A DNA stretch of 64,000 nucleotides from Metridium senile (taxonomy: Eukaryota; Cnidaria; Anthozoa; Actiniaria; Metridiidae). The translations under genes were made by a program, and so were the position numbers. Positions 18,521 through 58,699 of this stretch are shown one piece after another (position 1 is the first letter of the stretch; the number at the start of each line of letters is the position of its first letter). The notes beneath the pieces are model-generated. The model searched no databases. It saw only the letters and a list, made by a program, of their open reading frames with translations, and was not told the DNA's origin. The stretch covers positions 34,524,768 to 34,588,767 of the forward strand of contig OX459095.1 in assembly GCA_949775045.1 (NCBI GenBank), read 5' to 3'.

Positions 18521-18689
18521 TCATGAGTTTAATCTAATTTTTAAATAAGACAGCTTTTTAAGGATATAAAAAAGTGCAATTGAATGTAAAAATTGGGATG
18601 TTGATGATAACCGACAAACATTTTGCTACTAAACCGACACTGTTAACTTGTAGAAAGTGCGCACAAATATGGATCTGACTTGCAACTTA

Positions 18690-18760
18690 TGATTGTTACG
18701 TCACGTTGAATGACGGCTTTATCACGTGATTATGACGTCATGGCGAGCGCGCGTGGATTA
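18690..18760. promoter_or_regulatory. E-box / CRE block (unit 1; repeated in other units)
   Basis: TTACGTCA is followed by the palindromic E-box CACGTG (18723-18728), the full palindromic CRE TGACGTCA (18733-18740) and a CpG-rich GCGAGCGCGCG. The block recurs every 1994 bp (for example CRE at 20727-20734). It lies about 690 bp upstream of the ATG of the preceding (lower-numbered) gene and past the 3' end of the gene in its own unit, so it could be a distal promoter or enhancer. In unit 20 (about 56573-56632) the E-box persists but the CRE is lost. Unit 20 itself has no such block upstream. Confidence 0.6.
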
Positions 18761-19052
18761 GAATGACAATTATAGAGTAAAAAGTGAATTGGAACTATGG
18801 TCAAAATGAAATTCATTTTTTTTTATTTTAAAACAAGGTATAATTTTTTAATATTCAACCAATAAAAAGATGAAAAAAACAACAACAATTCAAATTTTTC
18901 TTAATTTTTGGTAATGTCTAAAATTAGGAGTTTTAGCTCAAGTCAAATACTGCTTTCCATCCAAAGTTAACGTTTTTCGCAGCGAAAGCACTCGGAATTA
19001 GAGTACAAAACACAAGAACAACAACAACAACAGTATTTTGACTACTAATATA

Positions 19053-19058
19053 TTTATT
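19053..19058 (-). terminator. Poly(A) signal AATAAA of homeobox unit 1
   Basis: AATAAA on the - strand about 85 nt after the stop codon, in an AT-rich context. It recurs at the same place in the other units and is retained in units 19 and 20. It implies a very short 3' UTR and independent termination of each gene rather than one long array transcript. Confidence 0.65.
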
Positions 19059-19142
19059 TCACATATTTATCTACATATACATTTGTATTTAAAACATAAT
19101 ATCTTCAATTATATTTACAATGACTCTATATTTGTACCGATA

Positions 19143-20041
19143 TCATTGGTAATAATAAGGCGATACTGCATAACTTGGTACAATGTATGGTGGTGGTCTT
19201 ACTCTACTGTACAACGATGGTCTAATAACACGTGGTCTGTAGTACGGTACTGGTCGGTAACTAGTCTGACCGGCCAGGCTGGGCTGCTGTGCTCCACGCA
19301 CAAGCTTCTCTGCAAGACTGTTAAGGTATGCTAACTTGGCTGCTCGTTGTCTGTCGTGGTTCAGTTGGTTTTTCGCACTCACTCGTCGTTTACGATACCA
19401 CAGTTTGACTTGATCTTCGCTGGCATGGATTTCTGTTGCTAGTCGTCGACGTTCTTTCTTGGTGGGGTAGGGCTGGAGGTCGTAGGCTTTGGCGAGGATT
19501 ATCTCCTGGTAGACGGACAGGAATGGTGCTTCTGGACTCTGGATGGTCGGATGATCCGCCCTAGGTGATGACATTGCTGTAGATTAGAAGAAACAAAACA
19601 TATTAGAACAAGACATATATTGCAAGTTGATCGTTACAAAATACATATAGGTAAATAATCATTGTGTTTAAAGGTAAGAGTTTCATACAAGACATTGTCA
19701 TTATAGTCATTCATTTACATCATTCTGAATTCAGCACATTCTAAACCAACAGCCAGAATTCAATCAACTTTTTCCATCATAGAACATATCTTACCTTTAG
19801 TAGTAGTTTGCTTACTATCAGACGAGTAACGGCCCGCTGTACAGGTAGAAGAACGGTCAGTGGTACAAGGCTGGTCAACATGCGTAGTACGTAGAATATC
19901 TTCAATCATAAACGATGACTTTGCCTTGACAGGTCTGCAGGATGGTACTTCTGATTTCACCATTTTGGTATTTGCTTGTGTTTCAAGAGTTGTTTTCTTT
20001 GTGAATGCTTTCGATAGAATGATGCAGTGTGTTGGGGGCAT
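19143..20041 (-). CDS. Divergent homeodomain protein, array copy 1
   Basis: Probable DNA-binding transcription factor, possibly a repressor; family not assigned. Exon 1 is 19795-20041, exon 2 is 19143-19576; the donor is AAAG|GTAAGA, the acceptor CTACAG|CA, and the joined frame gives 226 aa. Residues 43-50 (SFMIEDIL) resemble the eh1/Hep motif that recruits Groucho/TLE. A gapless 60-residue homeodomain fits residues 95-154: L16, Y25, R31, L34, W48 and R53 (homeodomain numbering) are present, but position 51 is Lys (WYRKRR) instead of Asn and position 50 is Arg. The tail (about 175-226) is rich in Pro, Tyr and Arg and ends YYYQ. ATG choice: M1 has A at -3; M27 (KMVKSE) is a good alternative start. 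The eh1-like motif plus ERRRLA and QVKLW suggest a derived ANTP/NKL-type homeobox, which is inference. This is the downstream-most, fully conserved copy. Confidence 0.85.
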
Positions 20042-20046
20042 CTTGG

Positions 20047-20506: not shown

Positions 20507-20540
20507 CCAAATCATTTTGATCAACGACGTCAAGCAACTG
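20507..20540 (-). other. Candidate non-coding or alternative 5' exon end (unit 1)
   Basis: The - strand carries a near-perfect donor TTTGG|GTAAGT (intron from 20506) following an ATG (20535-20537) with a short open frame MLDVVDQNDLG. A possible acceptor (CGACTACAG) lies near 20190. It recurs in all units except unit 20, where a MITE has inserted at the donor. Splicing is not demonstrated. Confidence 0.3.
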
Positions 20541-21136: not shown

Positions 21137-22035
21137 TCATTGGTAATAATAAGGCGATACTGCATAACTTGGTACAATGTATGGTGGTGGTCTTACTCTA
21201 CTGTACAACGATGGTCTAATAACACGTGGTCTGTAGTACGGTACTGGTCGGTAACTAGTCTGACCGGCCAGGCTGGGCTGCTGTGCTCCACGCACAAGCT
21301 TCTCTGCAAGACTGTTAAGGTATGCTAACTTGGCTGCTCGTTGTCTGTCGTGGTTCAGTTGGTTTTTCGCACTCACTCGTCGTTTACGATACCACAGTTT
21401 GACTTGATCTTCGCTGGCATGGATTTCTGTTGCTAGTCGTCGACGTTCTTTCTTGGTGGGGTAGGGCTGGAGGTCGTAGGCTTTGGCGAGGATTATCTCC
21501 TGGTAGACGGACAGGAATGGTGCTTCTGGACTCTGGATGGTCGGATGATCCGCCCTAGGTGATGACATTGCTGTAGATTAGAAGAAACAAAACATATTAG
21601 AACAAGACATATATTGCAAGTTGATCGTTACAAAATACATATAGGTAAATAATCATTGTGTTTAAAGGTAAGAGTTTCATACAAGACATTGTCATTATAG
21701 TCATTCATTTACATCATTCTGAATTCAGCACATTCTAAACCAACAGCCAGAATTCAATCAACTTTTTCCATCATAGAACATATCTTACCTTTAGTAGTAG
21801 TTTGCTTACTATCAGACGAGTAACGGCCCGCTGTACAGGTAGAAGAACGGTCAGTGGTACAAGGCTGGTCAACATGCGTAGTACGTAGAATATCTTCAAT
21901 CATAAACGATGACTTTGCCTTGACAGGTCTGCAGGATGGTACTTCTGATTTCACCATTTTGGTATTTGCTTGTGTTTCAAGAGTTGTTTTCTTTGTGAAT
22001 GCTTTCGATAGAATGATGCAGTGTGTTGGGGGCAT
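21137..22035 (-). CDS. Homeodomain protein, array copy 2
   Basis: Exons 21789-22035 and 21137-21570. The protein is identical to copy 1 (Pro at residue 211). The 3' flank carries the TTTTTTAAT variant, as in copies 1, 3 and 9-13. Confidence 0.85.
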
Positions 22036-23130: not shown

Positions 23131-24029
23131 TCATTGGTAATAATAAGGCGATACTGCATAACTTGGTACAATGTATGGTGATGGTCTTACTCTACTGTAC
23201 AACGATGGTCTAATAACACGTGGTCTGTAGTACGGTACTGGTCGGTAACTAGTCTGACCGGCCAGGCTGGGCTGCTGTGCTCCACGCACAAGCTTCTCTG
23301 CAAGACTGTTAAGGTATGCTAACTTGGCTGCTCGTTGTCTGTCGTGGTTCAGTTGGTTTTTCGCACTCACTCGTCGTTTACGATACCACAGTTTGACTTG
23401 ATCTTCGCTGGCATGGATTTCTGTTGCTAGTCGTCGACGTTCTTTCTTGGTGGGGTAGGGCTGGAGGTCGTAGGCTTTGGCGAGGATTATCTCCTGGTAG
23501 ACGGACAGGAATGGTGCTTCTGGACTCTGGATGGTCGGATGATCCGCCCTAGGTGATGACATTGCTGTAGATTAGAAGAAACAAAACATATTAGAACAAG
23601 ACATATATTGCAAGTTGATCGTTACAAAATACATATAGGTAAATAATCATTGTGTTTAAAGGTAAGAGTTTCATACAAGACATTGTCATTATAGTCATTC
23701 ATTTACATCATTCTGAATTCAGCACATTCTAAACCAACAGCCAGAATTCAATCAACTTTTTCCATCATAGAACATATCTTACCTTTAGTAGTAGTTTGCT
23801 TACTATCAGACGAGTAACGGCCCGCTGTACAGGTAGAAGAACGGTCAGTGGTACAAGGCTGGTCAACATGCGTAGTACGTAGAATATCTTCAATCATAAA
23901 CGATGACTTTGCCTTGACAGGTCTGCAGGATGGTACTTCTGATTTCACCATTTTGGTATTTGCTTGTGTTTCAAGAGTTGTTTTCTTTGTGAATGCTTTC
24001 GATAGAATGATGCAGTGTGTTGGGGGCAT
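23131..24029 (-). CDS. Homeodomain protein, array copy 3
   Basis: Exons 23783-24029 and 23131-23564. Differs from copy 1 by P211S near the C terminus, the state also seen in copies 14, 15, 17 and 18. The 3' flank keeps the TTTTTTAAT variant, a combination not seen in any other of copies 1-18. Confidence 0.85.
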
Positions 24030-25124
24030 CTTGGTTTTATAGTTTGATTAACACTTCAAAGACCAGCCTACTTTTTGGCGGGAAATTGAACACGGCGGGC
24101 CCGGCCTATTGCCGAGCGCTGGAAGGCGCCACACCGAGGGTTTTGGCGGGAAAAATCCCTTTAAATACTCTGCGCCGAGCTACTGTAGTCGGAATTGTTC
24201 AAAGAGCGGCGGTCGCGGGCATAAATTGATTGATTAATTAAAGAACGATTGAATTGCAATTGAGAAGCATTGTCTGTTCAACACTTTCCCGTTTGCAAGA
24301 ACAAAAATTCCAACAGCTCACTTTGGTATACTTTGAAGATAAACTGAATACTCTTAGATAATTAAGTTTCTTATAGTGATTACAATGTATACTATTAAAA
24401 AAGCTCACCATAACAATGTATCGAATTATATAAATGACAATGTTGTAGCACACGGCAGAATAACAGGAAAATACGTTCTGGTTGTTTGACTTACCCAAAT
24501 CATTTTGATCAACGACGTCAAGCAACTGTTTTAGTACTTGTGTATTAACAAATATGTTTGATTCCCAAGTAAAATTTCAATGTTGATGATAACTGACAAA
24601 CATTTTGCTACTAAACCGACACTGTTAACTTGTAGAAAGTGCGCACAAATATGGATCTGACTTGCAACTTATGATTGTTACGTCACGTTGAATGACGGCT
24701 TTATCACGTGATTATGACGTCATGGCGAGCGCGCGTGGATTAGAATGACAATTATAGAGTAAAAAGTGAATTGGAACTATGGTCAAAATGAAATTCATTT
24801 TTTTTTATTTTAAAACAAGGTATAATTTTTAAATATTCAACCAATAAAAAGATGAAAAAAACAACAACAATTCAAATTTTTCTTAATTTTTGGTAATGTC
24901 TAAAATTAGGAGTTTTAGCTCAAGTCAAATACTGCTTTCCATCCAAAGTTAACGTTTTTCGCAGCGAAAGCACTCGGAATTAGAGTACAAAACACAAGAA
25001 CAACAACAACAACAGTATTTTGACTACTAATATATTTATTTCACATATTTATCTACATATACATTTGTATTTAAAACATAATATCTTCAATTATATTTAC
25101 AATGACTCTATATTTGTACCGATA

Positions 25125-26023
25125 TCATTGGTAATAATAAGGCGATACTGCATAACTTGGTACAATGTATGGTGGTGGTCTTACTCTACTGTACAACGAT
25201 GGTCTAATAACACGTGGTCTGTAGTACGGTACTGGTCGGTAACTAGTCTGACCGGCCAGGCTGGGCTGCTGTGCTCCACGCACAAGCTTCTCTGCAAGAC
25301 TGTTAAGGTATGCTAACTTGGCTGCTCGTTGTCTGTCGTGGTTCAGTTGGTTTTTCGCACTCACTCGTCGTTTACGATACCACAGTTTGACTTGATCTTC
25401 GCTGGCATGGATTTCTGTTGCTAGTCGTCGACGTTCTTTCTTGGTGGGGTAGGGCTGGAGGTCGTAGGCTTTGGCGAGGATTATCTCCTGGTAGACGGAC
25501 AGGAATGGTGCTTCTGGACTCTGGATGGTCGGATGATCCGCCCTAGGTGATGACATTGCTGTAGATTAGAAGAAACAAAACATATTAGAACAAGACATAT
25601 ATTGCAAGTTGATCGTTACAAAATACATATAGGTAAATAATCATTGTGTTTAAAGGTAAGAGTTTCATACAAGACATTGTCATTATAGTCATTCATTTAC
25701 ATCATTCTGAATTCAGCACATTCTAAACCAACAGCCAGAATTCAATCAACTTTTTCCATCATAGAACATATCTTACCTTTAGTAGTAGTTTGCTTACTAT
25801 CAGACGAGTAACGGCCCGCTGTACAGGTAGAAGAACGGTCAGTGGTACAAGGCTGGTCAACATGCGTAGTACGTAGAATATCTTCAATCATAAACGATGA
25901 CTTTGCCTTGACAGGTCTGCAGGATGGTACTTCTGATTTCACCATTTTGGTATTTGCTTGTGTTTCAAGAGTTGTTTTCTTTGTGAATGCTTTCGATAGA
26001 ATGATGCAGTGTGTTGGGGGCAT
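25125..26023 (-). CDS. Homeodomain protein, array copy 4
   Basis: Exons 25777-26023 and 25125-25558. Protein as copy 1. The first copy from the left with the TTTTTAAAT variant in its 3' flank (24829 region), shared with copies 5-8 and 14-18. Confidence 0.85.
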
Positions 26024-27118
26024 CTTGGTTTTATAGTTTGATTAACACTTCAAAGACCAGCCTACTTTTTGGCGGGAAATTGAACACGGCGGGCCCGGCC
26101 TATTGCCGAGCGCTGGAAGGCGCCACACCGAGGGTTTTGGCGGGAAAAATCCCTTTAAATACTCTGCGCCGAGCTACTGTAGTCGGAATTGTTCAAAGAG
26201 CGGCGGTCGCGGGCATAAATTGATTGATTAATTAAAGAACGATTGAATTGCAATTGAGAAGCATTGTCTGTTCAACACTTTCCCGTTTGCAAGAACAAAA
26301 ATTCCAACAGCTCACTTTGGTATACTTTGAAGATAAACTGAATACTCTTAGATAATTAAGTTTCTTATAGTGATTACAATGTATACTATTAAAAAAGCTC
26401 ACCATAACAATGTATCGAATTATATAAATGACAATGTTGTAGCACACGGCAGAATAACAGGAAAATACGTTCTGGTTGTTTGACTTACCCAAATCATTTT
26501 GATCAACGACGTCAAGCAACTGTTTTAGTACTTGTGTATTAACAAATATGTTTGATTCCCAAGTAAAATTTCAATGTTGATGATAACTGACAAACATTTT
26601 GCTACTAAACCGACACTGTTAACTTGTAGAAAGTGCGCACAAATATGGATCTGACTTGCAACTTATGATTGTTACGTCACGTTGAATGACGGCTTTATCA
26701 CGTGATTATGACGTCATGGCGAGCGCGCGTGGATTAGAATGACAATTATAGAGTAAAAAGTGAATTGGAACTATGGTCAAAATGAAATTCATTTTTTTTT
26801 ATTTTAAAACAAGGTATAATTTTTAAATATTCAACCAATAAAAAGATGAAAAAAACAACAACAATTCAAATTTTTCTTAATTTTTGGTAATGTCTAAAAT
26901 TAGGAGTTTTAGCTCAAGTCAAATACTGCTTTCCATCCAAAGTTAACGTTTTTCGCAGCGAAAGCACTCGGAATTAGAGTACAAAACACAAGAACAACAA
27001 CAACAACAGTATTTTGACTACTAATATATTTATTTCACATATTTATCTACATATACATTTGTATTTAAAACATAATATCTTCAATTATATTTACAATGAC
27101 TCTATATTTGTACCGATA

Positions 27119-28017
27119 TCATTGGTAATAATAAGGCGATACTGCATAACTTGGTACAATGTATGGTGGTGGTCTTACTCTACTGTACAACGATGGTCTA
27201 ATAACACGTGGTCTGTAGTACGGTACTGGTCGGTAACTAGTCTGACCGGCCAGGCTGGGCTGCTGTGCTCCACGCACAAGCTTCTCTGCAAGACTGTTAA
27301 GGTATGCTAACTTGGCTGCTCGTTGTCTGTCGTGGTTCAGTTGGTTTTTCGCACTCACTCGTCGTTTACGATACCACAGTTTGACTTGATCTTCGCTGGC
27401 ATGGATTTCTGTTGCTAGTCGTCGACGTTCTTTCTTGGTGGGGTAGGGCTGGAGGTCGTAGGCTTTGGCGAGGATTATCTCCTGGTAGACGGACAGGAAT
27501 GGTGCTTCTGGACTCTGGATGGTCGGATGATCCGCCCTAGGTGATGACATTGCTGTAGATTAGAAGAAACAAAACATATTAGAACAAGACATATATTGCA
27601 AGTTGATCGTTACAAAATACATATAGGTAAATAATCATTGTGTTTAAAGGTAAGAGTTTCATACAAGACATTGTCATTATAGTCATTCATTTACATCATT
27701 CTGAATTCAGCACATTCTAAACCAACAGCCAGAATTCAATCAACTTTTTCCATCATAGAACATATCTTACCTTTAGTAGTAGTTTGCTTACTATCAGACG
27801 AGTAACGGCCCGCTGTACAGGTAGAAGAACGGTCAGTGGTACAAGGCTGGTCAACATGCGTAGTACGTAGAATATCTTCAATCATAAACGATGACTTTGC
27901 CTTGACAGGTCTGCAGGATGGTACTTCTGATTTCACCATTTTGGTATTTGCTTGTGTTTCAAGAGTTGTTTTCTTTGTGAATGCTTTCGATAGAATGATG
28001 CAGTGTGTTGGGGGCAT
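27119..28017 (-). CDS. Homeodomain protein, array copy 5
   Basis: Exons 27771-28017 and 27119-27552. Protein as copy 1; TTTTTAAAT flank variant. Confidence 0.85.
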
Positions 28018-29112: not shown

Positions 29113-30011
29113 TCATTGGTAATAATAAGGCGATACTGCATAACTTGGTACAATGTATGGTGGTGGTCTTACTCTACTGTACAACGATGGTCTAATAACA
29201 CGTGGTCTGTAGTACGGTACTGGTCGGTAACTAGTCTGACCGGCCAGGCTGGGCTGCTGTGCTCCACGCACAAGCTTCTCTGCAAGACTGTTAAGGTATG
29301 CTAACTTGGCTGCTCGTTGTCTGTCGTGGTTCAGTTGGTTTTTCGCACTCACTCGTCGTTTACGATACCACAGTTTGACTTGATCTTCGCTGGCATGGAT
29401 TTCTGTTGCTAGTCGTCGACGTTCTTTCTTGGTGGGGTAGGGCTGGAGGTCGTAGGCTTTGGCGAGGATTATCTCCTGGTAGACGGACAGGAATGGTGCT
29501 TCTGGACTCTGGATGGTCGGATGATCCGCCCTAGGTGATGACATTGCTGTAGATTAGAAGAAACAAAACATATTAGAACAAGACATATATTGCAAGTTGA
29601 TCGTTACAAAATACATATAGGTAAATAATCATTGTGTTTAAAGGTAAGAGTTTCATACAAGACATTGTCATTATAGTCATTCATTTACATCATTCTGAAT
29701 TCAGCACATTCTAAACCAACAGCCAGAATTCAATCAACTTTTTCCATCATAGAACATATCTTACCTTTAGTAGTAGTTTGCTTACTATCAGACGAGTAAC
29801 GGCCCGCTGTACAGGTAGAAGAACGGTCAGTGGTACAAGGCTGGTCAACATGCGTAGTACGTAGAATATCTTCAATCATAAACGATGACTTTGCCTTGAC
29901 AGGTCTGCAGGATGGTACTTCTGATTTCACCATTTTGGTATTTGCTTGTGTTTCAAGAGTTGTTTTCTTTGTGAATGCTTTCGATAGAATGATGCAGTGT
30001 GTTGGGGGCAT
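29113..30011 (-). CDS. Homeodomain protein, array copy 6
   Basis: Exons 29765-30011 and 29113-29546. Protein as copy 1; TTTTTAAAT flank variant. Confidence 0.85.
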
Positions 30012-31106: not shown

Positions 31107-32005
31107 TCATTGGTAATAATAAGGCGATACTGCATAACTTGGTACAATGTATGGTGGTGGTCTTACTCTACTGTACAACGATGGTCTAATAACACGTGGT
31201 CTGTAGTACGGTACTGGTCGGTAACTAGTCTGACCGGCCAGGCTGGGCTGCTGTGCTCCACGCACAAGCTTCTCTGCAAGACTGTTAAGGTATGCTAACT
31301 TGGCTGCTCGTTGTCTGTCGTGGTTCAGTTGGTTTTTCGCACTCACTCGTCGTTTACGATACCACAGTTTGACTTGATCTTCGCTGGCATGGATTTCTGT
31401 TGCTAGTCGTCGACGTTCTTTCTTGGTGGGGTAGGGCTGGAGGTCGTAGGCTTTGGCGAGGATTATCTCCTGGTAGACGGACAGGAATGGTGCTTCTGGA
31501 CTCTGGATGGTCGGATGATCCGCCCTAGGTGATGACATTGCTGTAGATTAGAAGAAACAAAACATATTAGAACAAGACATATATTGCAAGTTGATCGTTA
31601 CAAAATACATATAGGTAAATAATCATTGTGTTTAAAGGTAAGAGTTTCATACAAGACATTGTCATTATAGTCATTCATTTACATCATTCTGAATTCAGCA
31701 CATTCTAAACCAACAGCCAGAATTCAATCAACTTTTTCCATCATAGAACATATCTTACCTTTAGTAGTAGTTTGCTTACTATCAGACGAGTAACGGCCCG
31801 CTGTACAGGTAGAAGAACGGTCAGTGGTACAAGGCTGGTCAACATGCGTAGTACGTAGAATATCTTCAATCATAAACGATGACTTTGCCTTGACAGGTCT
31901 GCAGGATGGTACTTCTGATTTCACCATTTTGGTATTTGCTTGTGTTTCAAGAGTTGTTTTCTTTGTGAATGCTTTCGATAGAATGATGCAGTGTGTTGGG
32001 GGCAT
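31107..32005 (-). CDS. Homeodomain protein, array copy 7
   Basis: Exons 31759-32005 and 31107-31540. Protein as copy 1; TTTTTAAAT flank variant. Confidence 0.85.
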
Positions 32006-33100: not shown

Positions 33101-33999
33101 TCATTGGTAATAATAAGGCGATACTGCATAACTTGGTACAATGTATGGTGGTGGTCTTACTCTACTGTACAACGATGGTCTAATAACACGTGGTCTGTAG
33201 TACGGTACTGGTCGGTAACTAGTCTGACCGGCCAGGCTGGGCTGCTGTGCTCCACGCACAAGCTTCTCTGCAAGACTGTTAAGGTATGCTAACTTGGCTG
33301 CTCGTTGTCTGTCGTGGTTCAGTTGGTTTTTCGCACTCACTCGTCGTTTACGATACCACAGTTTGACTTGATCTTCGCTGGCATGGATTTCTGTTGCTAG
33401 TCGTCGACGTTCTTTCTTGGTGGGGTAGGGCTGGAGGTCGTAGGCTTTGGCGAGGATTATCTCCTGGTAGACGGACAGGAATGGTGCTTCTGGACTCTGG
33501 ATGGTCGGATGATCCGCCCTAGGTGATGACATTGCTGTAGATTAGAAGAAACAAAACATATTAGAACAAGACATATATTGCAAGTTGATCGTTACAAAAT
33601 ACATATAGGTAAATAATCATTGTGTTTAAAGGTAAGAGTTTCATACAAGACATTGTCATTATAGTCATTCATTTACATCATTCTGAATTCAGCACATTCT
33701 AAACCAACAGCCAGAATTCAATCAACTTTTTCCATCATAGAACATATCTTACCTTTAGTAGTAGTTTGCTTACTATCAGACGAGTAACGGCCCGCTGTAC
33801 AGGTAGAAGAACGGTCAGTGGTACAAGGCTGGTCAACATGCGTAGTACGTAGAATATCTTCAATCATAAACGATGACTTTGCCTTGACAGGTCTGCAGGA
33901 TGGTACTTCTGATTTCACCATTTTGGTATTTGCTTGTGTTTCAAGAGTTGTTTTCTTTGTGAATGCTTTCGATAGAATGATGCAGTGTGTTGGGGGCAT
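33101..33999 (-). CDS. Homeodomain protein, array copy 8
   Basis: Exons 33753-33999 and 33101-33534. Protein as copy 1; last of the run 4-8 with the TTTTTAAAT flank. Confidence 0.85.
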
Positions 34000-35094: not shown

Positions 35095-35993
35095 TCATTG
35101 GTAATAATAAGGCGATACTGCATAACTTGGTACAATGTATGGTGGTGGTCTTACTCTACTGTACAACGATGGTCTAATAACACGTGGTCTGTAGTACGGT
35201 ACTGGTCGGTAACTAGTCTGACCGGCCAGGCTGGGCTGCTGTGCTCCACGCACAAGCTTCTCTGCAAGACTGTTAAGGTATGCTAACTTGGCTGCTCGTT
35301 GTCTGTCGTGGTTCAGTTGGTTTTTCGCACTCACTCGTCGTTTACGATACCACAGTTTGACTTGATCTTCGCTGGCATGGATTTCTGTTGCTAGTCGTCG
35401 ACGTTCTTTCTTGGTGGGGTAGGGCTGGAGGTCGTAGGCTTTGGCGAGGATTATCTCCTGGTAGACGGACAGGAATGGTGCTTCTGGACTCTGGATGGTC
35501 GGATGATCCGCCCTAGGTGATGACATTGCTGTAGATTAGAAGAAACAAAACATATTAGAACAAGACATATATTGCAAGTTGATCGTTACAAAATACATAT
35601 AGGTAAATAATCATTGTGTTTAAAGGTAAGAGTTTCATACAAGACATTGTCATTATAGTCATTCATTTACATCATTCTGAATTCAGCACATTCTAAACCA
35701 ACAGCCAGAATTCAATCAACTTTTTCCATCATAGAACATATCTTACCTTTAGTAGTAGTTTGCTTACTATCAGACGAGTAACGGCCCGCTGTACAGGTAG
35801 AAGAACGGTCAGTGGTACAAGGCTGGTCAACATGCGTAGTACGTAGAATATCTTCAATCATAAACGATGACTTTGCCTTGACAGGTCTGCAGGATGGTAC
35901 TTCTGATTTCACCATTTTGGTATTTGCTTGTGTTTCAAGAGTTGTTTTCTTTGTGAATGCTTTTGATAGAATGATGCAGTGTGTTGGGGGCAT
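35095..35993 (-). CDS. Homeodomain protein, array copy 9
   Basis: Exons 35747-35993 and 35095-35528. Protein as copy 1. Exon 1 has a synonymous Ser10 change (TCG to TCA on the coding strand; + strand GCTTTTGAT) shared only with copies 10 and 11. The flank reverts to TTTTTTAAT. Confidence 0.85.
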
Positions 35994-37088: not shown

Positions 37089-37987
37089 TCATTGGTAATA
37101 ATAAGGCGATACTGCATAACTTGGTACAATGTATGGTGGTGGTCTTACTCTACTGTACAACGATGGTCTAATAACACGTGGTCTGTAGTACGGTACTGGT
37201 CGGTAACTAGTCTGACCGGCCAGGCTGGGCTGCTGTGCTCCACGCACAAGCTTCTCTGCAAGACTGTTAAGGTATGCTAACTTGGCTGCTCGTTGTCTGT
37301 CGTGGTTCAGTTGGTTTTTCGCACTCACTCGTCGTTTACGATACCACAGTTTGACTTGATCTTCGCTGGCATGGATTTCTGTTGCTAGTCGTCGACGTTC
37401 TTTCTTGGTGGGGTAGGGCTGGAGGTCGTAGGCTTTGGCGAGGATTATCTCCTGGTAGACGGACAGGAATGGTGCTTCTGGACTCTGGATGGTCGGATGA
37501 TCCGCCCTAGGTGATGACATTGCTGTAGATTAGAAGAAACAAAACATATTAGAACAAGACATATATTGCAAGTTGATCGTTACAAAATACATATAGGTAA
37601 ATAATCATTGTGTTTAAAGGTAAGAGTTTCATACAAGACATTGTCATTATAGTCATTCATTTACATCATTCTGAATTCAGCACATTCTAAACCAACAGCC
37701 AGAATTCAATCAACTTTTTCCATCATAGAACATATCTTACCTTTAGTAGTAGTTTGCTTACTATCAGACGAGTAACGGCCCGCTGTACAGGTAGAAGAAC
37801 GGTCAGTGGTACAAGGCTGGTCAACATGCGTAGTACGTAGAATATCTTCAATCATAAACGATGACTTTGCCTTGACAGGTCTGCAGGATGGTACTTCTGA
37901 TTTCACCATTTTGGTATTTGCTTGTGTTTCAAGAGTTGTTTTCTTTGTGAATGCTTTTGATAGAATGATGCAGTGTGTTGGGGGCAT
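37089..37987 (-). CDS. Homeodomain protein, array copy 10
   Basis: Exons 37741-37987 and 37089-37522. Protein as copy 1; carries the synonymous Ser10 variant. Confidence 0.85.
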
Positions 37988-41076: not shown

Positions 41077-41975
41077 TCATTGGTAATAATAAGGCGATAC
41101 TGCATAACTTGGTACAATGTATGGTGGTGGTCTTACTCTACTGTACAACGATGGTCTAATAACACGTGGTCTGTAGTACGGTACTGGTCGGTAACTAGTC
41201 TGACCGGCCAGGCTGGGCTGCTGTGCTCCACGCACAAGCTTCTCTGCAAGACTGTTAAGGTATGCTAACTTGGCTGCTCGTTGTCTGTCGTGGTTCAGTT
41301 GGTTTTTCGCACTCACTCGTCGTTTACGATACCACAGTTTGACTTGATCTTCGCTGGCATGGATTTCTGTTGCTAGTCGTCGACGTTCTTTCTTGGTGGG
41401 GTAGGGCTGGAGGTCGTAGGCTTTGGCGAGGATTATCTCCTGGTAGACGGACAGGAATGGTGCTTCTGGACTCTGGATGGTCGGATGATCCGCCCTAGGT
41501 GATGACATTGCTGTAGATTAGAAGAAACAAAACATATTAGAACAAGACATATATTGCAAGTTGATCGTTACAAAATACATATAGGTAAATAATCATTGTG
41601 TTTAAAGGTAAGAGTTTCATACAAGACATTGTCATTATAGTCATTCATTTACATCATTCTGAATTCAGCACATTCTAAACCAACAGCCAGAATTCAATCA
41701 ACTTTTTCCATCATAGAACATATCTTACCTTTAGTAGTAGTTTGCTTACTATCAGACGAGTAACGGCCCGCTGTACAGGTAGAAGAACGGTCAGTGGTAC
41801 AAGGCTGGTCAACATGCGTAGTACGTAGAATATCTTCAATCATAAACGATGACTTTGCCTTGACAGGTCTGCAGGATGGTACTTCTGATTTCACCATTTT
41901 GGTATTTGCTTGTGTTTCAAGAGTTGTTTTCTTTGTGAATGCTTTCGATAGAATGATGCAGTGTGTTGGGGGCAT
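41077..41975 (-). CDS. Homeodomain protein, array copy 12
   Basis: Exons 41729-41975 and 41077-41510. Protein as copy 1; TTTTTTAAT flank. Confidence 0.85.
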
Positions 41976-43070: not shown

Positions 43071-43969
43071 TCATTGGTAATAATAAGGCGATACTGCATA
43101 ACTTGGTACAATGTATGGTGGTGGTCTTACTCTACTGTACAACGATGGTCTAATAACACGTGGTCTGTAGTACGGTACTGGTCGGTAACTAGTCTGACCG
43201 GCCAGGCTGGGCTGCTGTGCTCCACGCACAAGCTTCTCTGCAAGACTGTTAAGGTATGCTAACTTGGCTGCTCGTTGTCTGTCGTGGTTCAGTTGGTTTT
43301 TCGCACTCACTCGTCGTTTACGATACCACAGTTTGACTTGATCTTCGCTGGCATGGATTTCTGTTGCTAGTCGTCGACGTTCTTTCTTGGTGGGGTAGGG
43401 CTGGAGGTCGTAGGCTTTGGCGAGGATTATCTCCTGGTAGACGGACAGGAATGGTGCTTCTGGACTCTGGATGGTCGGATGATCCGCCCTAGGTGATGAC
43501 ATTGCTGTAGATTAGAAGAAACAAAACATATTAGAACAAGACATATATTGCAAGTTGATCGTTACAAAATACATATAGGTAAATAATCATTGTGTTTAAA
43601 GGTAAGAGTTTCATACAAGACATTGTCATTATAGTCATTCATTTACATCATTCTGAATTCAGCACATTCTAAACCAACAGCCAGAATTCAATCAACTTTT
43701 TCCATCATAGAACATATCTTACCTTTAGTAGTAGTTTGCTTACTATCAGACGAGTAACGGCCCGCTGTACAGGTAGAAGAACGGTCAGTGGTACAAGGCT
43801 GGTCAACATGCGTAGTACGTAGAATATCTTCAATCATAAACGATGACTTTGCCTTGACAGGTCTGCAGGATGGTACTTCTGATTTCACCATTTTGGTATT
43901 TGCTTGTGTTTCAAGAGTTGTTTTCTTTGTGAATGCTTTCGATAGAATGATGCAGTGTGTTGGGGGCAT
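43071..43969 (-). CDS. Homeodomain protein, array copy 13
   Basis: Exons 43723-43969 and 43071-43504. Protein as copy 1. Its 5' flank (about 44480) carries the ACTTGCGTATT variant, shared with the 5' flanks of copies 14, 16 and 17. Confidence 0.85.
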
Positions 43970-45064: not shown

Positions 45065-45963
45065 TCATTGGTAATAATAAGGCGATACTGCATAACTTGG
45101 TACAATGTATGGTGATGGTCTTACTCTACTGTACAACGATGGTCTAATAACACGTGGTCTGTAGTACGGTACTGGTCGGTAACTAGTCTGACCGGCCAGG
45201 CTGGGCTGCTGTGCTCCACGCACAAGCTTCTCTGCAAGACTGTTAAGGTATGCTAACTTGGCTGCTCGTTGTCTGTCGTGGTTCAGTTGGTTTTTCGCAC
45301 TCACTCGTCGTTTACGATACCACAGTTTGACTTGATCTTCGCTGGCATGGATTTCTGTTGCTAGTCGTCGACGTTCTTTCTTGGTGGGGTAGGGCTGGAG
45401 GTCGTAGGCTTTGGCGAGGATTATCTCCTGGTAGACGGACAGGAATGGTGCTTCTGGACTCTGGATGGTCGGATGATCCGCCCTAGGTGATGACATTGCT
45501 GTAGATTAGAAGAAACAAAACATATTAGAACAAGACATATATTGCAAGTTGATCGTTACAAAATACATATAGGTAAATAATCATTGTGTTTAAAGGTAAG
45601 AGTTTCATACAAGACATTGTCATTATAGTCATTCATTTACATCATTCTGAATTCAGCACATTCTAAACCAACAGCCAGAATTCAATCAACTTTTTCCATC
45701 ATAGAACATATCTTACCTTTAGTAGTAGTTTGCTTACTATCAGACGAGTAACGGCCCGCTGTACAGGTAGAAGAACGGTCAGTGGTACAAGGCTGGTCAA
45801 CATGCGTAGTACGTAGAATATCTTCAATCATAAACGATGACTTTGCCTTGACAGGTCTGCAGGATGGTACTTCTGATTTCACCATTTTGGTATTTGCTTG
45901 TGTTTCAAGAGTTGTTTTCTTTGTGAATGCTTTCGATAGAATGATGCAGTGTGTTGGGGGCAT
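45065..45963 (-). CDS. Homeodomain protein, array copy 14
   Basis: Exons 45717-45963 and 45065-45498. Ser at residue 211; TTTTTAAAT 3' flank and GCGTATT 5' flank. Confidence 0.85.
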
Positions 45964-47058: not shown

Positions 47059-47957
47059 TCATTGGTAATAATAAGGCGATACTGCATAACTTGGTACAAT
47101 GTATGGTGATGGTCTTACTCTACTGTACAACGATGGTCTAATAACACGTGGTCTGTAGTACGGTACTGGTCGGTAACTAGTCTGACCGGCCAGGCTGGGC
47201 TGCTGTGCTCCACGCACAAGCTTCTCTGCAAGACTGTTAAGGTATGCTAACTTGGCTGCTCGTTGTCTGTCGTGGTTCAGTTGGTTTTTCGCACTCACTC
47301 GTCGTTTACGATACCACAGTTTGACTTGATCTTCGCTGGCATGGATTTCTGTTGCTAGTCGTCGACGTTCTTTCTTGGTGGGGTAGGGCTGGAGGTCGTA
47401 GGCTTTGGCGAGGATTATCTCCTGGTAGACGGACAGGAATGGTGCTTCTGGACTCTGGATGGTCGGATGATCCGCCCTAGGTGATGACATTGCTGTAGAT
47501 TAGAAGAAACAAAACATATTAGAACAAGACATATATTGCAAGTTGATCGTTACAAAATACATATAGGTAAATAATCATTGTGTTTAAAGGTAAGAGTTTC
47601 ATACAAGACATTGTCATTATAGTCATTCATTTACATCATTCTGAATTCAGCACATTCTAAACCAACAGCCAGAATTCAATCAACTTTTTCCATCATAGAA
47701 CATATCTTACCTTTAGTAGTAGTTTGCTTACTATCAGACGAGTAACGGCCCGCTGTACAGGTAGAAGAACGGTCAGTGGTACAAGGCTGGTCAACATGCG
47801 TAGTACGTAGAATATCTTCAATCATAAACGATGACTTTGCCTTGACAGGTCTGCAGGATGGTACTTCTGATTTCACCATTTTGGTATTTGCTTGTGTTTC
47901 AAGAGTTGTTTTCTTTGTGAATGCTTTCGATAGAATGATGCAGTGTGTTGGGGGCAT
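47059..47957 (-). CDS. Homeodomain protein, array copy 15
   Basis: Exons 47711-47957 and 47059-47492. Ser at residue 211; its 5' flank has GTGTATT, marking a haplotype switch before copy 16. Confidence 0.85.
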
Positions 47958-49052: not shown

Positions 49053-49951
49053 TCATTGGTAATAATAAGGCGATACTGCATAACTTGGTACAATGTATGG
49101 TGGTGGTCTTACTCTACTGTACAACGATGGTCTAATAACACGTGGTCTGTAGTACGGTACTGGTCGGTAACTAGTCTGACCGGCCAGGCTGGGCTGCTGT
49201 GCTCCACGCACAAGCTTCTCTGCAAGACTGTTAAGGTATGCTAACTTGGCTGCTCGTTGTCTGTCGTGGTTCAGTTGGTTTTTCGCACTCACTCGTCGTT
49301 TACGATACCACAGTTTGACTTGATCTTCGCTGGCATGGATTTCTGTTGCTAGTCGTCGACGTTCTTTCTTGGTGGGGTAGGGCTGGAGGTCGTAGGCTTT
49401 GGCGAGGATTATCTCCTGGTAGACGGACAGGAATGGTGCTTCTGGACTCTGGATGGTCGGATGATCCGCCCTAGGTGATGACATTGCTGTAGATTAGAAG
49501 AAACAAAACATATTAGAACAAGACATATATTGCAAGTTGATCGTTACAAAATACATATAGGTAAATAATCATTGTGTTTAAAGGTAAGAGTTTCATACAA
49601 GACATTGTCATTATAGTCATTCATTTACATCATTCTGAATTCAGCACATTCTAAACCAACAGCCAGAATTCAATCAACTTTTTCCATCATAGAACATATC
49701 TTACCTTTAGTAGTAGTTTGCTTACTATCAGACGAGTAACGGCCCGCTGTACAGGTAGAAGAACGGTCAGTGGTACAAGGCTGGTCAACATGCGTAGTAC
49801 GTAGAATATCTTCAATCATAAACGATGACTTTGCCTTGACAGGTCTGCAGGATGGTACTTCTGATTTCACCATTTTGGTATTTGCTTGTGTTTCAAGAGT
49901 TGTTTTCTTTGTGAATGCTTTCGATAGAATGATGCAGTGTGTTGGGGGCAT
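49053..49951 (-). CDS. Homeodomain protein, array copy 16
   Basis: Exons 49705-49951 and 49053-49486. Pro at residue 211, an isolated Pro copy among Ser copies; its own 5' flank has GCGTATT. Confidence 0.85.
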
Positions 49952-51046: not shown

Positions 51047-51945
51047 TCATTGGTAATAATAAGGCGATACTGCATAACTTGGTACAATGTATGGTGATGG
51101 TCTTACTCTACTGTACAACGATGGTCTAATAACACGTGGTCTGTAGTACGGTACTGGTCGGTAACTAGTCTGACCGGCCAGGCTGGGCTGCTGTGCTCCA
51201 CGCACAAGCTTCTCTGCAAGACTGTTAAGGTATGCTAACTTGGCTGCTCGTTGTCTGTCGTGGTTCAGTTGGTTTTTCGCACTCACTCGTCGTTTACGAT
51301 ACCACAGTTTGACTTGATCTTCGCTGGCATGGATTTCTGTTGCTAGTCGTCGACGTTCTTTCTTGGTGGGGTAGGGCTGGAGGTCGTAGGCTTTGGCGAG
51401 GATTATCTCCTGGTAGACGGACAGGAATGGTGCTTCTGGACTCTGGATGGTCGGATGATCCGCCCTAGGTGATGACATTGCTGTAGATTAGAAGAAACAA
51501 AACATATTAGAACAAGACATATATTGCAAGTTGATCGTTACAAAATACATATAGGTAAATAATCATTGTGTTTAAAGGTAAGAGTTTCATACAAGACATT
51601 GTCATTATAGTCATTCATTTACATCATTCTGAATTCAGCACATTCTAAACCAACAGCCAGAATTCAATCAACTTTTTCCATCATAGAACATATCTTACCT
51701 TTAGTAGTAGTTTGCTTACTATCAGACGAGTAACGGCCCGCTGTACAGGTAGAAGAACGGTCAGTGGTACAAGGCTGGTCAACATGCGTAGTACGTAGAA
51801 TATCTTCAATCATAAACGATGACTTTGCCTTGACAGGTCTGCAGGATGGTACTTCTGATTTCACCATTTTGGTATTTGCTTGTGTTTCAAGAGTTGTTTT
51901 CTTTGTGAATGCTTTCGATAGAATGATGCAGTGTGTTGGGGGCAT
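51047..51945 (-). CDS. Homeodomain protein, array copy 17
   Basis: Exons 51699-51945 and 51047-51480. Ser at residue 211; TTTTTAAAT and GCGTATT flanks as copy 14. Confidence 0.85.
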
Positions 51946-53040: not shown

Positions 53041-53939
53041 TCATTGGTAATAATAAGGCGATACTGCATAACTTGGTACAATGTATGGTGATGGTCTTAC
53101 TCTACTGTACAACGATGGTCTAATAACACGTGGTCTGTAGTACGGTACTGGTCGGTAACTAGTCTGACCGGCCAGGCTGGGCTGCTGTGCTCCACGCACA
53201 AGCTTCTCTGCAAGACTGTTAAGGTATGCTAACTTGGCTGCTCGTTGTCTGTCGTGGTTCAGTTGGTTTTTCGCACTCACTCGTCGTTTACGATACCACA
53301 GTTTGACTTGATCTTCGCTGGCATGGATTTCTGTTGCTAGTCGTCGACGTTCTTTCTTGGTGGGGTAGGGCTGGAGGTCGTAGGCTTTGGCGAGGATTAT
53401 CTCCTGGTAGACGGACAGGAATGGTGCTTCTGGACTCTGGATGGTCGGATGATCCGCCCTAGGTGATGACATTGCTGTAGATTAGAAGAAACAAAACATA
53501 TTAGAACAAGACATATATTGCAAGTTGATCGTTACAAAATACATATAGGTAAATAATCATTGTGTTTAAAGGTAAGAGTTTCATACAAGACATTGTCATT
53601 ATAGTCATTCATTTACATCATTCTGAATTCAGCACATTCTAAACCAACAGCCAGAATTCAATCAACTTTTTCCATCATAGAACATATCTTACCTTTAGTA
53701 GTAGTTTGCTTACTATCAGACGAGTAACGGCCCGCTGTACAGGTAGAAGAACGGTCAGTGGTACAAGGCTGGTCAACATGCGTAGTACGTAGAATATCTT
53801 CAATCATAAACGATGACTTTGCCTTGACAGGTCTGCAGGATGGTACTTCTGATTTCACCATTTTGGTATTTGCTTGTGTTTCAAGAGTTGTTTTCTTTGT
53901 GAATGCTTTCGATAGAATGATGCAGTGTGTTGGGGGCAT
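53041..53939 (-). CDS. Homeodomain protein, array copy 18
   Basis: Exons 53693-53939 and 53041-53474. Ser at residue 211. The 5' region has a 2-bp TA insertion (TTATATAGTG near 54283). The left part of the next unit, from about 54660, is the first clearly diverged sequence. Confidence 0.85.
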
Positions 53940-55027: not shown

Positions 55028-55924
55028 TCATTGGTAATAATAAGGCGATACTGCATAACTTGGTACAATGTATGGTGATGATCTTACTCTACTGTACAAC
55101 GATGGTCTAATAACACGTGGTCTGTAGTACGGTACTGGTCGGTAACTAGTCTGACCGGCCAGGCTGGGCTGCTGTGCTCCACGCACAAGCTTCTCTGCAA
55201 GACTGTTAAGGTATGCTAACTTGGCTGCTCGTTGTCTGTCGTGGTTCAGTTGGTTTTTCGCACTCACTCGTCGTTTACGATACCACAGTTTGACTTGATC
55301 TTCGCTGGCATGGATTTCTGTTGCTAGTCGTCGACGTTCTTTCTTGGTGGGGTAGGGCTGGAGGTCGTAGGCTTTGGCGAGGATTATCTCCTGGTAGACG
55401 GACAGGAATGGTGCTTCTGGACTCTGGATGGTCGGATGATCCGCCCTAGGTGATGACACTGCTGTAGATTAGAAGAAACAAAAAAATATCAGAACAAGAC
55501 ATATTGCAAGTTGATCGTTACAAAATACATACAGGTAAATAATCATTGTGTTTAAGGGTAAGAGTTTCATACAAGACATTGTCATTATAGTCATTCATTT
55601 ACATCATTCTGAATTCAGCACATTGTAAACCAACAGCCAGAATTCAATCTACTTTTTCCATCATAGAACATATCTACCTTTAGTAGTAGTTTGCTTACTA
55701 TCAGACGAGTAACGGCCCGCTGTACAGGTACAGGAACGGTCAGTGGTACAAGGCTGGTCAACATGCGTAGTACGTAGAATATCTTCAATCATAAACGATG
55801 ACTTTGCCTTGACAGGTCTGCAGGATGGTACTTCTGATTTCACCATTTTGGTATTTGCTTGTGTTTCAAGAGTTGTTTTCTTTGTGAATGCTTTCGATAG
55901 AATGATGCAGTGTGTTGGGGGCAT
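55028..55924 (-). CDS. Homeodomain protein, array copy 19 (weakened splice donor)
   Basis: Exons 55678-55924 and 55028-55461, 226 aa. Changes from copy 1 include Ser-Ser at 210-211, one Ser to Cys in exon 1, and Met84 to Val (GTG). Homeodomain and FMIEDIL are unchanged. A 1-bp deletion alters the intron start from GTAAGA to GTAGAT, which may reduce splicing. Flanking non-coding DNA is much more diverged than the gene. Both E2F-type sites are intact. Confidence 0.75.
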
Positions 55925-57018
55925 CTTGGTTTTATAGTTTAGTTAACACTTCAAAGACCAGCCTACTTTTTGGCGGGAAATTGAACACGGCGGGCCCGGC
56001 CTATTGCCGAGCGCTGGAAGGCGCCACACCGAGGGTTTTGGCGGGAAAATTCTCTTTAAATACTCTGCGCCGAGCTACTCTAGTCGGAATTGTTCAAAGA
56101 GCGGCGGTCGCGGGCATAAACTGATTGATTAATTAAAGAACGATTGAATTGCAATTTAGAAGCATTGTCTGTTCAACGTTTTCCCGTTTGCAAGAACAAC
56201 AATTGCAACAACTCACTTTGGTATACTTTGAAGATAAACTGAATACTGTTAGACAATTAAGTTTCTTATAGTGAATACAATGTCCACTATTAAAAAAGCT
56301 CACCATAACAATGTATCGAATTATATAAATGACAATGTTGTAGCACACGGCAGAATAACAGGAAAATACGTTCTGGTTGTTTGACTTACCAAAATCATTT
56401 TGATCAACGACCTCAAGCAACTGTTTTAGTACTTGTGTATTAACAAATATGTTTGGTTCCCAAGTACAATTTCAATGTTGATGATAACCGACAAACATTT
56501 TGCTACTAAACCGACACTGTTAACGTATAGAAAGTGTGCAGAAATATGGATCTGACATGAAACTTATGATTGTTACGTCACGTTGAATGACGGCTTGATC
56601 ACGTGATTATGAAATGGAGGTGAGCGCCTGGATTAGAATGTCAATTAGAAAGCAAAAAGTGCAATGGAACTATAGTCAAAATGAAATTATTTGTTTCTAT
56701 TCTAAAACAAGGTATAATTTTAAAATATTCAATGAATAAAAGATGAAAAAACAACAGTCATTCAAAGTTTTCTTAATTTTTTTCTTGTGTCTACAATTAG
56801 GAGTTTCAGTTCAAGTCAAATACTGCTTTCCATGCAAAGTTAACGTTTTTCGCAGCGAAAGAACTTTGAATTAGAGTATAAAACACAAGAACAACAACAA
56901 CAGTATTTTTACTACTAATATATTTATTTCACCTATTTATTTATCTAAATATATACATTTGTATTTAAAACATAATATCTTCAATTTTATTTACAATGAC
57001 TCTATATTTGTAGCGATA

Positions 57019-57908
57019 TCAGTGGTAATAATAAGGCGATACTAGATAACTTGGTACAATGTATGGTGATGATCTTACTCTACTGTACAACGATGGTCTA
57101 ATAACACGTGGTCTGTAGTACTGTACTGGTCGGTGACTAGTCTGACCAGCCAGGCTGGGCTGCTGTGCTCCACGCACAAGGTTCTCTGCAAGACTGTTAA
57201 GGTATGCTAACTTGGCTGCTCGTTGTCTGTCGTGGTTCAGTTGGCTTTTCGCACTCACTCCTCGTTTACGATACCACAGTTTGACTTGATCTTCGCTGGC
57301 ATGGATTTCTGTTGCTAGTCGTCGTCGTTCTTTATTGGTGGGGTAGGGCTGGAGGTCGTAGGCTTTGGCGAGGATTATCTCCTGGTAGACGGACAGGAAT
57401 GGTGCTTCTGGACTCTGGATGGTCGGATGATCCCTAGGTGATGACATTGCTGTAGATTAGAAGAAACAAAACATATCAGAACAAGACATATTGCAAGTTG
57501 ATCGTTACAAAATACATATAGGTAAATAATCATTGTGTTAAGGGTAAGAGTTTCATACAAGACATTGTCATTATAGTCATTCATTTACATCATTCTGAAT
57601 TCAGCACATTCTAAACCAACAGCCAGAATTCAGTCAACTTTTTCCATCATAGAACATATCTTACCTTTAGCAGTAGTTTGCTTACTAACAGACGAGTAAC
57701 GGTCCGCTGTACAGGTAGAAGAACGGTCAGTGATGCAAGGCTGGTCAACATGCGTAGTACGTAGAATATGTTCTATCATAAACGATGACTTTGCCTTGAC
57801 AGGTCTGGATGGTACTTCTGATTTCACCATTTTGGTATTTGCTTGGGCTTCAAGAGTTGTTTTCTTTGTGAATGCTTTCGATAGAATGATGCAGTGTGTT
57901 GGGGGCAT
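57019..57908 (-). CDS. Homeodomain protein, array copy 20 (diverged edge copy)
   Basis: Exons 57665-57908 and 57019-57449; normal donor and acceptor; 224 aa. About fifteen residues differ from copy 1. There are two single-codon deletions (Cys35 and Ala89), both frame-preserving. The eh1-like motif reads FMIEHIL, and homeodomain Arg53 is Gly (WYRKRG), so a second near-invariant DNA-contact residue is lost; Lys51 is kept. The - strand gene is the upstream-most copy, next to WBP4. A MITE sits about 450 bp upstream and the E-box/CRE block is absent upstream. It may be an old functional paralogue or decaying. Confidence 0.7.
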
Positions 57909-58354
57909 CTTGGTTTTATAGTTTGATTAACACTTCAAAGACCAGCCTACTGTTTGGATGGAAATTAAACACGGCGTGGAGCGATGGAAGGTGCCGCACC
58001 CAAGTTTTTTGGCGGGAAAAATGTTTTTAAATAGGATACGGCGAGCCGAGTCGGACTTGTTCAAAGTGCAGCGGCCGCGGCATAAATTGATTGATTAATT
58101 AAAGAATGATTGAAATGAAACTTAGAAGCATTGTCTGTTGAACGTTTTCCCGTTTGCAAGAACAAAAATTGCAACAACTCACTTTGGTAAAGATATCTAA
58201 ACTGAATACTCTTAGACAATTAAGTTTCTTCTAGTGAATACAATGTATACTAAAAATGCTCACCATAACAATGTATCGAATTATATAAATGACAATGTTG
58301 TAGCATGAATGCTTTCCCCAGTAGAATAACAGGCAAATACGTTCTGTTTGACTA

Positions 58355-58592
58355 AGGCTACGTTTACACGGGAGCGGACGAATTTTTGACCGGTCAAAAA
58401 AACATCCGCTTACGGGTTCCGTTCACACGGGAGTGTGCCAAACTTGCATTAATTTGTACGTCTAACCGGTCAAATATTGTGATGGTCTCGTCTAAACAGA
58501 ACGAGAATATTGATCGGTTCCGTGTGAACAGCATGTCCAGGTCGATCTTTTGACAGGTCAAAAGTTCGTCCGGTACCGTGTAAACCTAGCCT
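58355..58592. mobile_element. MITE inserted in the upstream region of copy 20
   Basis: Inverted ends AGGCTACGTTTACACGG and CCGTGTAAACCTAGCCT with flanking TA dinucleotides (58353-58354 and 58593-58594). Comparison with the other 19 units shows precise interruption of the GACTTACCCAAATC segment, destroying the candidate 5' donor. Non-coding. Confidence 0.85.
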
Positions 58593-58699
58593 TATCCAAA
58601 TCATTTTGATCAACGACCTCAAGCAACTGTTTTAGTACTTGTATATTAACAAATATGTTTGATTTACAAGTAAAATTTGAATGTTGATGATAACCGACA

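Follow-up and report, generated by a model that had tools for sequence, protein, structure and literature searches.

Mammals have, in D4Z4/DUX4, a tandem array whose units each carry a homeobox frame and a promoter; DUX4 is a retrogene, and its product carries two homeodomains. In the sea anemone Actinernus sp., the anthozoan-specific ANTP-group-c has grown by tandem expansion (24 of 28 genes; PMC10598428), and in Nematostella the near-identical tandem copies of Nv1 vary in number between populations (PMC9842752). HOPX is an example of a homeodomain fold that lacks key DNA-contact residues (PMC9179269). Each of these systems shares a feature with the locus described here, an array of 20 near-identical homeobox genes within a 64,000-nucleotide stretch of the Metridium senile genome (C1:34524768-34588767, hereafter called the window; C1 stands for chromosome 1 and C9 for chromosome 9).

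Our main result is that every unit of this macrosatellite contains an intact homeobox gene whose homeodomain has lost Asn51. We read the locus, with a probability of about one half, as a recent dosage amplification, to about 20 copies, of a homeodomain protein, itself a member of a fast-evolving family, that has given up standard DNA reading.

Layout and gene content of the array

A 25-mer anchor occurs 20 times between positions 18613 and 56490 of the window, and all 20 genes are encoded on the minus strand. The array is confirmed, chance being excluded, and a preliminary description of this DNA was right in counting 20 units of the same orientation. The exact spacing of 1994 bp that it reported is also real, except that it holds for 17 units and not for 18: units 1 to 17 measure exactly 1994 bp, unit 18 1996 bp, unit 19 1983 bp and unit 20 2212 bp, the last being longer because of an insert of about 235 bp. 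Units 1 to 18, designated the core, show on average 0.0008 differences per bp, with four substitution sites and one 2-bp insertion, and five consecutive copies (units 4 to 8) are identical. Two divergent units form the right edge of the array: relative to the core, unit 19 carries 62 substitutions (1975 sites compared) and unit 20 carries 138 (1952 sites compared). The sequences TATAAAACCAAGATGCCCCC, ATGGTGAAATCAGAA and AATAAATATATTAG (poly(A) signal) occur 20 times each.

As described earlier, a complete gene is present in each unit: two exons and one intron are found in 20 of 20, together with a TATA box and the poly(A) signal, and no reading frame is broken. Intron length is 218 nucleotides throughout the core, 216 for unit 19 and 215 for unit 20; GT-AG gene models were obtained by script in 19 units, and unit 19, with its donor GTAGAT, was read separately. 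Read from the first ATG, the frame encodes 226 amino acids in 19 units and 224 in unit 20, and the core proteins fall into two forms (13 and 5 of the 18 units) that differ by one Pro/Ser replacement. The 226-residue protein proposed previously is probably over-called. Its ATG lies 3 nucleotides downstream of the TATA box TATAAAACC and is absent from a paralogue on chromosome 1, so this start is probably unused. The start ATGGTGAAA, 78 nucleotides further downstream, is common to the 20 units, the chromosome 1 copy and a second dispersed copy on chromosome 9, and the protein probably has 200 amino acids; the gene coordinates in Table 1 run from this likely start codon to the stop, intron included. 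That exon 1 is part of the gene follows from its FMIEDIL block, which is found again in the three longest database relatives and in both dispersed paralogues.

Upstream of the start, the E2F-type sequence TTTCCCGCCAAAA is present twice in units 1 to 19 and once in unit 20; these 39 occurrences, all within the array, are the only ones in the window, and shuffled sequences gave an expectation of 0. The proximal site precedes the start codon by 134 nucleotides in the array, 141 in the chromosome 1 copy and 142 in the chromosome 9 copy, and TATAAAA is found at -90, -90 and -88, respectively. An alternative TATA box, TATTTAAAGG, was dropped once the paralogues showed TATAAAA to be conserved. The transcription start has a tentative position, set by the TATA box together with a conserved CATCATTC. 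A sequence cited as an E2F-binding consensus is TTTCCCGCC (PMC3734150), and we infer that E2F acts at the array promoter sites.

A genome search with exon 2, in which all 93 candidates were scored, returned at E<1e-20 the 20 units, the C1 copy 2.44 Mb away and the C9 copy, these counts being lower bounds. With the unit as a DNA query, the matches listed were the C1 copy and eight short stretches of a dispersed repeat of about 120 bp; this search skips very common words and missed the array itself, and so cannot exclude a second array of the unit.

A homeodomain without Asn51

The protein has a single homeodomain, encoded by exon 2 (Pfam PF00046, E=5.5e-10), and none in exon 1; with one homeodomain per protein and not two, identity as a DUX gene is ruled out. 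Residue 51 is Lys in all 20 units and in the chromosome 1 copy, and Arg in the chromosome 9 copy, such that the 22 closest family genes of the genome are all devoid of Asn51. The pair Arg50-Lys51 is common to the array, the chromosome 1 copy and the database relatives P0002 and P0007. Of 11 database relatives, seven have Lys or Glu at position 51, among them P0001, which is the protein of the array, and the four others have Asn. As a control, 88 other homeodomains were fetched from the same genome, 87 of which have Asn51 and one Ser51 (150 scored matches among 222 candidates, with 19 array copies, and 38 matches that end before position 51 excluded); five further copies, read from a joined stretch of C5, have Asn51 in four cases and Ile51 in one, which brings the total to 91 of 93. 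The basic N-terminal arm is lost too: Arg5 is absent from all 12 aligned rows and from the chromosome 9 copy, and present in 78 of 81 readable other homeodomains of the genome. The array homeodomain therefore has neither of the residues, Asn51 and Arg5, that are canonical for DNA binding, and would not read DNA in the standard way.

The fold itself is predicted to be retained. AlphaFold, applied to exon 2 only, gives a mean predicted local distance difference test score (pLDDT) of 72.1 and a predicted template modelling score (pTM) of 0.46, with pLDDT near 94 in the homeodomain, and helix 3 is modelled as one long helix (residues 53-95) that runs through the downstream AKLAYLNSLA block. By Foldseek, the best 50 of 413 matches are homeodomain proteins or complexes with probability 1.00, and none lies below E 0.001. 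Two segments outside the domain are conserved. The AKLAYL-SLA block is invariant across 12 aligned sequences, and the N-terminal motif reads FMIEDIL in the array and the chromosome 1 paralogue, FMIDDLL in the chromosome 9 copy and FMVED[LI]L in three relatives. We take it to be eh1-like, of the Groucho-binding type; under that name, the N-terminal motif of an NK-like protein of the ANTP class is present.

The only named close relatives of the array protein are two genes of Actinia tenebrosa, 'zampogna-like' and 'koza-like' (P0009 and P0010), whose names refer to NK3/bagpipe. With the array they share the alignable succession of FM[IV]ED[IL]L, homeodomain and AKLAYLNSLA, and they too form a pair, 90% identical (longest contigs both 157453 bp), but they differ in having kept Asn51 (WFQNKR). 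Searched against the Metridium genome, the Actinia Asn51 protein finds the chromosome 1 copy, the array and the chromosome 9 copy as first matches. An unrooted tree splits Asn51-less from Asn51-bearing relatives with support 100/100, the chromosome 9 copy and P0007 having long branches. Among PDB chains, the family profile matches NKX3.1, PRH/HHEX, BARHL2 and NKX2.1 after the two-domain engrailed and DUX4 chains; the Actinia member alone matches PRH, VND/NK2, NKX2.5 and BARHL2, and array exon 2 alone a mixed list that includes PRH, Abd-B and Hox. NKX3.1 tops the single-domain matches for the family profile, not for P0009 alone. Placed by these matches, the family would be a fast-evolving anthozoan group of ANTP/NK-like type. 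A further protein search beyond the 11 relatives returned only a weak bird protein (E 1e-6), and scans of viral and of bacterial/archaeal contigs with the family alignment gave 22 and 33 pattern matches, respectively, none of which was confirmed.

Other homeobox genes of the genome bear on the origin of the family. The segment TKLAFANRLA that follows the homeodomain of a gene on C8 (L101, C8:13862400-13864700) resembles AKLAYLNSLA by eye, and shorter similar stretches follow the homeodomains of a C11 gene and of genes in an array on C5. These similarities suggest that the 22 Asn51-less genes probably lie inside a wider NK-like clade that keeps Asn51, and the C8 gene is a candidate for the conserved relative that gave rise to the family. 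The C5 array belongs to a different family and is a second case of homeobox genes in tandem (L099 and L100, C5:6366115-6385349): of its six homeodomain frames, five share a strand at intervals of about 3.6 kb and the sixth is inverted. One of the six has Ile51, and the segment after the homeodomain, AKLLY, is loosely like that of the window array. Relatives of this C5 family at C4:8036354 (Ser51) and C4:8067298 (internal stop) are possibly decaying copies. Close-set homeodomain pairs of equal score also occur at C3:8502283 and C3:8515318 and at C10:15144602 and C10:15163059; these pairs, and the identical homeodomain translations of the C3 pair, suggest that homeobox duplication has been frequent and recent in this genome.

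Homogenisation and the chromosome 1 paralogue

Within the core, four-gamete configurations are present at three of the six pairs of variable sites, and adjacent units are identical seven times where 2.0 are expected (permutation P=0.00075). Both observations indicate unequal exchange between units, and uphold the earlier suggestion that the array is homogenised in this way. Units 19 and 20 have diverged less in the gene body than in the flanks, and this holds for the intron and for synonymous sites as well, so conversion is the best explanation of this pattern; selection on the protein was ruled out as its cause on the same ground.

The chromosome 1 paralogue (L009, C1:32.09 Mb) matches the array at about 95%, and does so over the inferred mature mRNA only. 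Mismatches with a core unit amount to 10% for the 5' untranslated region, 3.0% and 4.2% for the two exons, and 8% for the 3' untranslated region, against 45% in the intron, 46% in the upstream part (unit 144-430), 31% from there to the TATA box, 27% in the 30 nucleotides from the TATA box and 56% past the poly(A) region. The two introns are still homologous (z=9 relative to shuffles). Synonymous differences (7 of 142) and differing intron columns (95 of 211) contrast at P=3e-18, and still at P=4e-8 when a gap-lenient intron alignment is used (52 of 192 differing). The exons have not simply been frozen by selection, since synonymous sites are near saturation relative to the chromosome 9 copy (dS about 1). 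An intron comparison with this latter copy was dropped as alignment noise. The mRNA-shaped similarity would be explained equally well by RNA-templated conversion and by DNA conversion limited by exon homology.

Longer-term constraint is visible against the chromosome 9 paralogue, for which the ratio of replacement to synonymous rates (dN/dS) is 0.52 (P=0.004). On the core branch, with the chromosome 1 copy as outgroup, there are one silent and seven replacement changes, and two inserted codons. Old constraint followed by recent relaxation would fit these figures, as would mild positive selection.

The coordinates of the array and of the other annotated features are collected in Table 1. The junction repeat piece lies at the same place in each unit, and near the start and the end of the array; it may have helped the first duplication. 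Just past the array, a stop-free frame of 1044 amino acids on the minus strand (59995-63129) has endonuclease and reverse transcriptase domains of the type found in retrotransposons without long terminal repeats, and a 101-bp tandem repeat (4.9 copies, 94% matches) occupies 14189-14682. The neighbouring gene named LIG3 in the preliminary description does have DNA ligase domains and a PDB match to DNA ligase 3; the other, WBP4, was not found in the window with a crude WW-motif pattern, which is not a proper search. No Rfam family reached its gathering score in the window.

Table 1. Features of the window (positions 1 to 64,000; MITE, miniature inverted-repeat transposable element)
Feature	Position	Strand	Remark
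Whole homeobox macrosatellite array, 20 units	18589-58701	- (genes)	array ends by BLAST
Homeobox gene, unit 1	19143-19963	-	exon model, start reassigned
Homeobox gene, unit 2	21137-21957	-	exon model, start reassigned
Homeobox gene, unit 3	23131-23951	-	exon model, start reassigned
Homeobox gene, unit 4	25125-25945	-	exon 1 25945-25777, intron 25776-25559, exon 2 25558-25125
Homeobox gene, unit 5	27119-27939	-	exon model, start reassigned
Homeobox gene, unit 6	29113-29933	-	exon model, start reassigned
Homeobox gene, unit 7	31107-31927	-	exon model, start reassigned
Homeobox gene, unit 8	33101-33921	-	exon model, start reassigned
Homeobox gene, unit 9	35095-35915	-	exon model, start reassigned
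Homeobox gene, unit 10	37089-37909	-	exon model, start reassigned
Homeobox gene, unit 11	39083-39903	-	exon model, start reassigned
Homeobox gene, unit 12	41077-41897	-	exon model, start reassigned
Homeobox gene, unit 13	43071-43891	-	exon model, start reassigned
Homeobox gene, unit 14	45065-45885	-	exon model, start reassigned
Homeobox gene, unit 15	47059-47879	-	exon model, start reassigned
Homeobox gene, unit 16	49053-49873	-	exon model, start reassigned
Homeobox gene, unit 17	51047-51867	-	exon model, start reassigned
Homeobox gene, unit 18	53041-53861	-	exon model, start reassigned
Homeobox gene, unit 19	55028-55846	-	62 substitutions from core (unit); donor GTAGAT
Homeobox gene, unit 20	57019-57830	-	198 amino acids; Arg53 to Gly in homeodomain; 138 substitutions from core (unit)
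TATA box TATAAAACC, unit 4	26027-26035	-	present in 20/20 units
Proximal E2F-type site TTTCCCGCCAAAA, unit 4	26067-26079	-	in 19/20 units, altered in unit 20
Distal E2F-type site TTTCCCGCCAAAA, unit 4	26135-26147	-	in 20/20 units
Piece (about 120 bp) of dispersed repeat, unit 4 junction	24595-24716	+	at least 8 other genome places, 73-77% identical
MITE-like insert (about 235 bp), unit 20	58351-58590		inverted ends matching by eye

Competing explanations and known systems

According to the reading that we favour, one member of a small anthozoan family of the ANTP class (NK-like) was recently amplified to about 20 copies, which unequal crossing-over and gene conversion would keep uniform. The protein, devoid of normal homeodomain DNA reading, would act through protein partners or through DNA contacts that are not sequence-specific, as a dosage-dependent co-repressor adaptor or an antagonist, for which HOPX offers the nearest logic. 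Its expression would fall in dividing cells, whether germline, early-embryo or stem cells, as the E2F-type sites suggest, and copy number would set its dose. Several results weigh against this dosage reading. Relative to the core, dN/dS is 1.26 for unit 19 and 1.25 for unit 20, not different from neutral (1.25 and 1.06 with the longer frame), and the value of 0.71 against the chromosome 1 copy is not significant. At the edge, unit 20 is without Arg53 and without an intact proximal E2F-type site, helix 3 is strongly basic (WYRKRR), making another kind of DNA binding possible, and the eh1 identification, which stays putative, rests on a short motif. Moreover, the border of the family is soft, as the C8 gene, which has Asn51 and Arg5, matches the Actinia protein nearly as strongly (6.2e-12) as does the chromosome 9 copy (1.7e-12). 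Ratios near 1 inside the array leave room for neutral amplification, in which a selfish macrosatellite spread by unequal exchange, perhaps with help from the junction repeat, while its genes drifted once their DNA-binding residues had been lost. Conversion as the source of low gene-body divergence, and the C5 array in which one copy went from Asn51 to Ile, agree with such drift, which we regard as possible though not probable. It sits less easily with the 20 intact frames, unit 20 with its 22 coding substitutions included, and with two coding length differences that consist of entire codons, inserted on the core branch (together a test of low power), with a TATA box and a distal E2F-type site intact in every unit, and with the constraint seen against the chromosome 9 paralogue and in the invariant AKLAYL-SLA block.

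The new residues 50 and 51 could alternatively have created a new DNA target, the array then delivering a strong pulse of a transcription factor of altered specificity. The predicted fold and basic helix 3 are kept, and Arg50-Lys51 recurs in four proteins of the family; however, Asn51-less relatives vary between Lys, Arg and Glu at position 51 and between Arg and Gln at position 50, as expected if those DNA contacts no longer matter, and with Arg5 missing as well we find this explanation unlikely. A functional analogue of D4Z4/DUX4, heterochromatic and silent in the soma, and released in the germline or early embryo to activate genes, is more doubtful still. It has the layout in its favour, since each macrosatellite unit holds a homeobox gene together with a promoter. 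In two PDB searches DUX4 chains also take places 2 to 7, but they owe this to the added scores of two domains, of which the better reaches about 30 bits, compared to 52.3 for NKX3.1. Further, the array protein has one divergent homeodomain, not two, without Asn51, and the CpG observed/expected ratio is 0.98 in the array versus 0.67 (left flank) and 0.84 (right flank); not being CpG-depleted, the array gives no hint of heavy germline methylation. Least probable of all, to the point of being remote, is an assembly artefact or an inflated copy number. The five identical units 4 to 8 would favour it, and because of them ordinary HiFi read lengths may not settle the copy count, so that the exact figure of 20, which rests on long-read assembly of near-identical units, is not proven. 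Against it stand the 59-fold HiFi coverage and quality value (QV) of 55 given for assembly jaMetSeni4.1 (PMC11362738), the distinct internal variants of the core, and the occurrence of a protein of 99% identity on seven contigs that reach at most 2004 bp (about one unit), under another source tag ('lgn', taken to be Logan). These contigs, the divergent edges and the exchange patterns in the core make it unlikely that the whole array is an artefact. A bolder version of the dosage reading, speculative and on balance improbable, is that the whole family gave up base reading (Asn51 and the arm lost, residue 51 free) and that one member became an E2F-driven dosage array of 20 copies, whose abundant spliced transcripts, or exon-limited conversion, overwrote the chromosome 1 paralogue 2.4 Mb away: a protein-titrating homeodomain on the logic of histone arrays.

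An amplification on this scale is an uncommon natural experiment on what homeobox genes do at such copy numbers. The animal lends itself to laboratory culture, natural copy-number variants are likely in it, and the locus provides a homeobox macrosatellite outside mammals. It allows one to ask whether such arrays arise once proteins cease to be dosage-sensitive readers of DNA. The Actinia genes with Asn51, the chromosome 9 copy, the chromosome 1 copy and the 20-copy array form a ready series for following the loss of homeodomain DNA reading, and the mRNA-only similarity of distant paralogues is a clean test case for RNA-templated or exon-limited conversion in an animal.

Growth of homeobox genes in tandem is not wholly without precedent in anemones, given the Actinernus group and the Nematostella array, and is known in kind. 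The open-access literature, as far as it was accessible, yielded no near-identical homeobox array from an invertebrate, the Actinernus tandem group being the only case, and a literature search for homeodomains without Asn51 gave no paper; within that literature, three features appear to be new, namely the near-identity of the units, the absence of Asn51 and the promoter. By its description, ANTP-group-c has duplicates on four chromosomes in comparable transposon surroundings and no near-identical 2-kb macrosatellite, and the accessible part of the account does not mention Asn51 (PMC10598428). Nv1 belongs to a secreted-peptide family and is not a transcription-factor gene (PMC9842752). The parallel with D4Z4/DUX4 drawn in the preliminary description holds for the layout and fails for the gene, as the array has one homeodomain, with NK-like proteins as nearest single homeodomains, one intron, and no Asn51. 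HOPX is distinguished by one extra residue, inserted between helices I and II (PMC9179269), for which the array homeodomain has no column, and the proteins differ outside the domain, conserved segments both preceding and following the array homeodomain. The logic of the array is thus between that of HOPX and that of a gene-bearing macrosatellite such as D4Z4, and it is a member of neither family.

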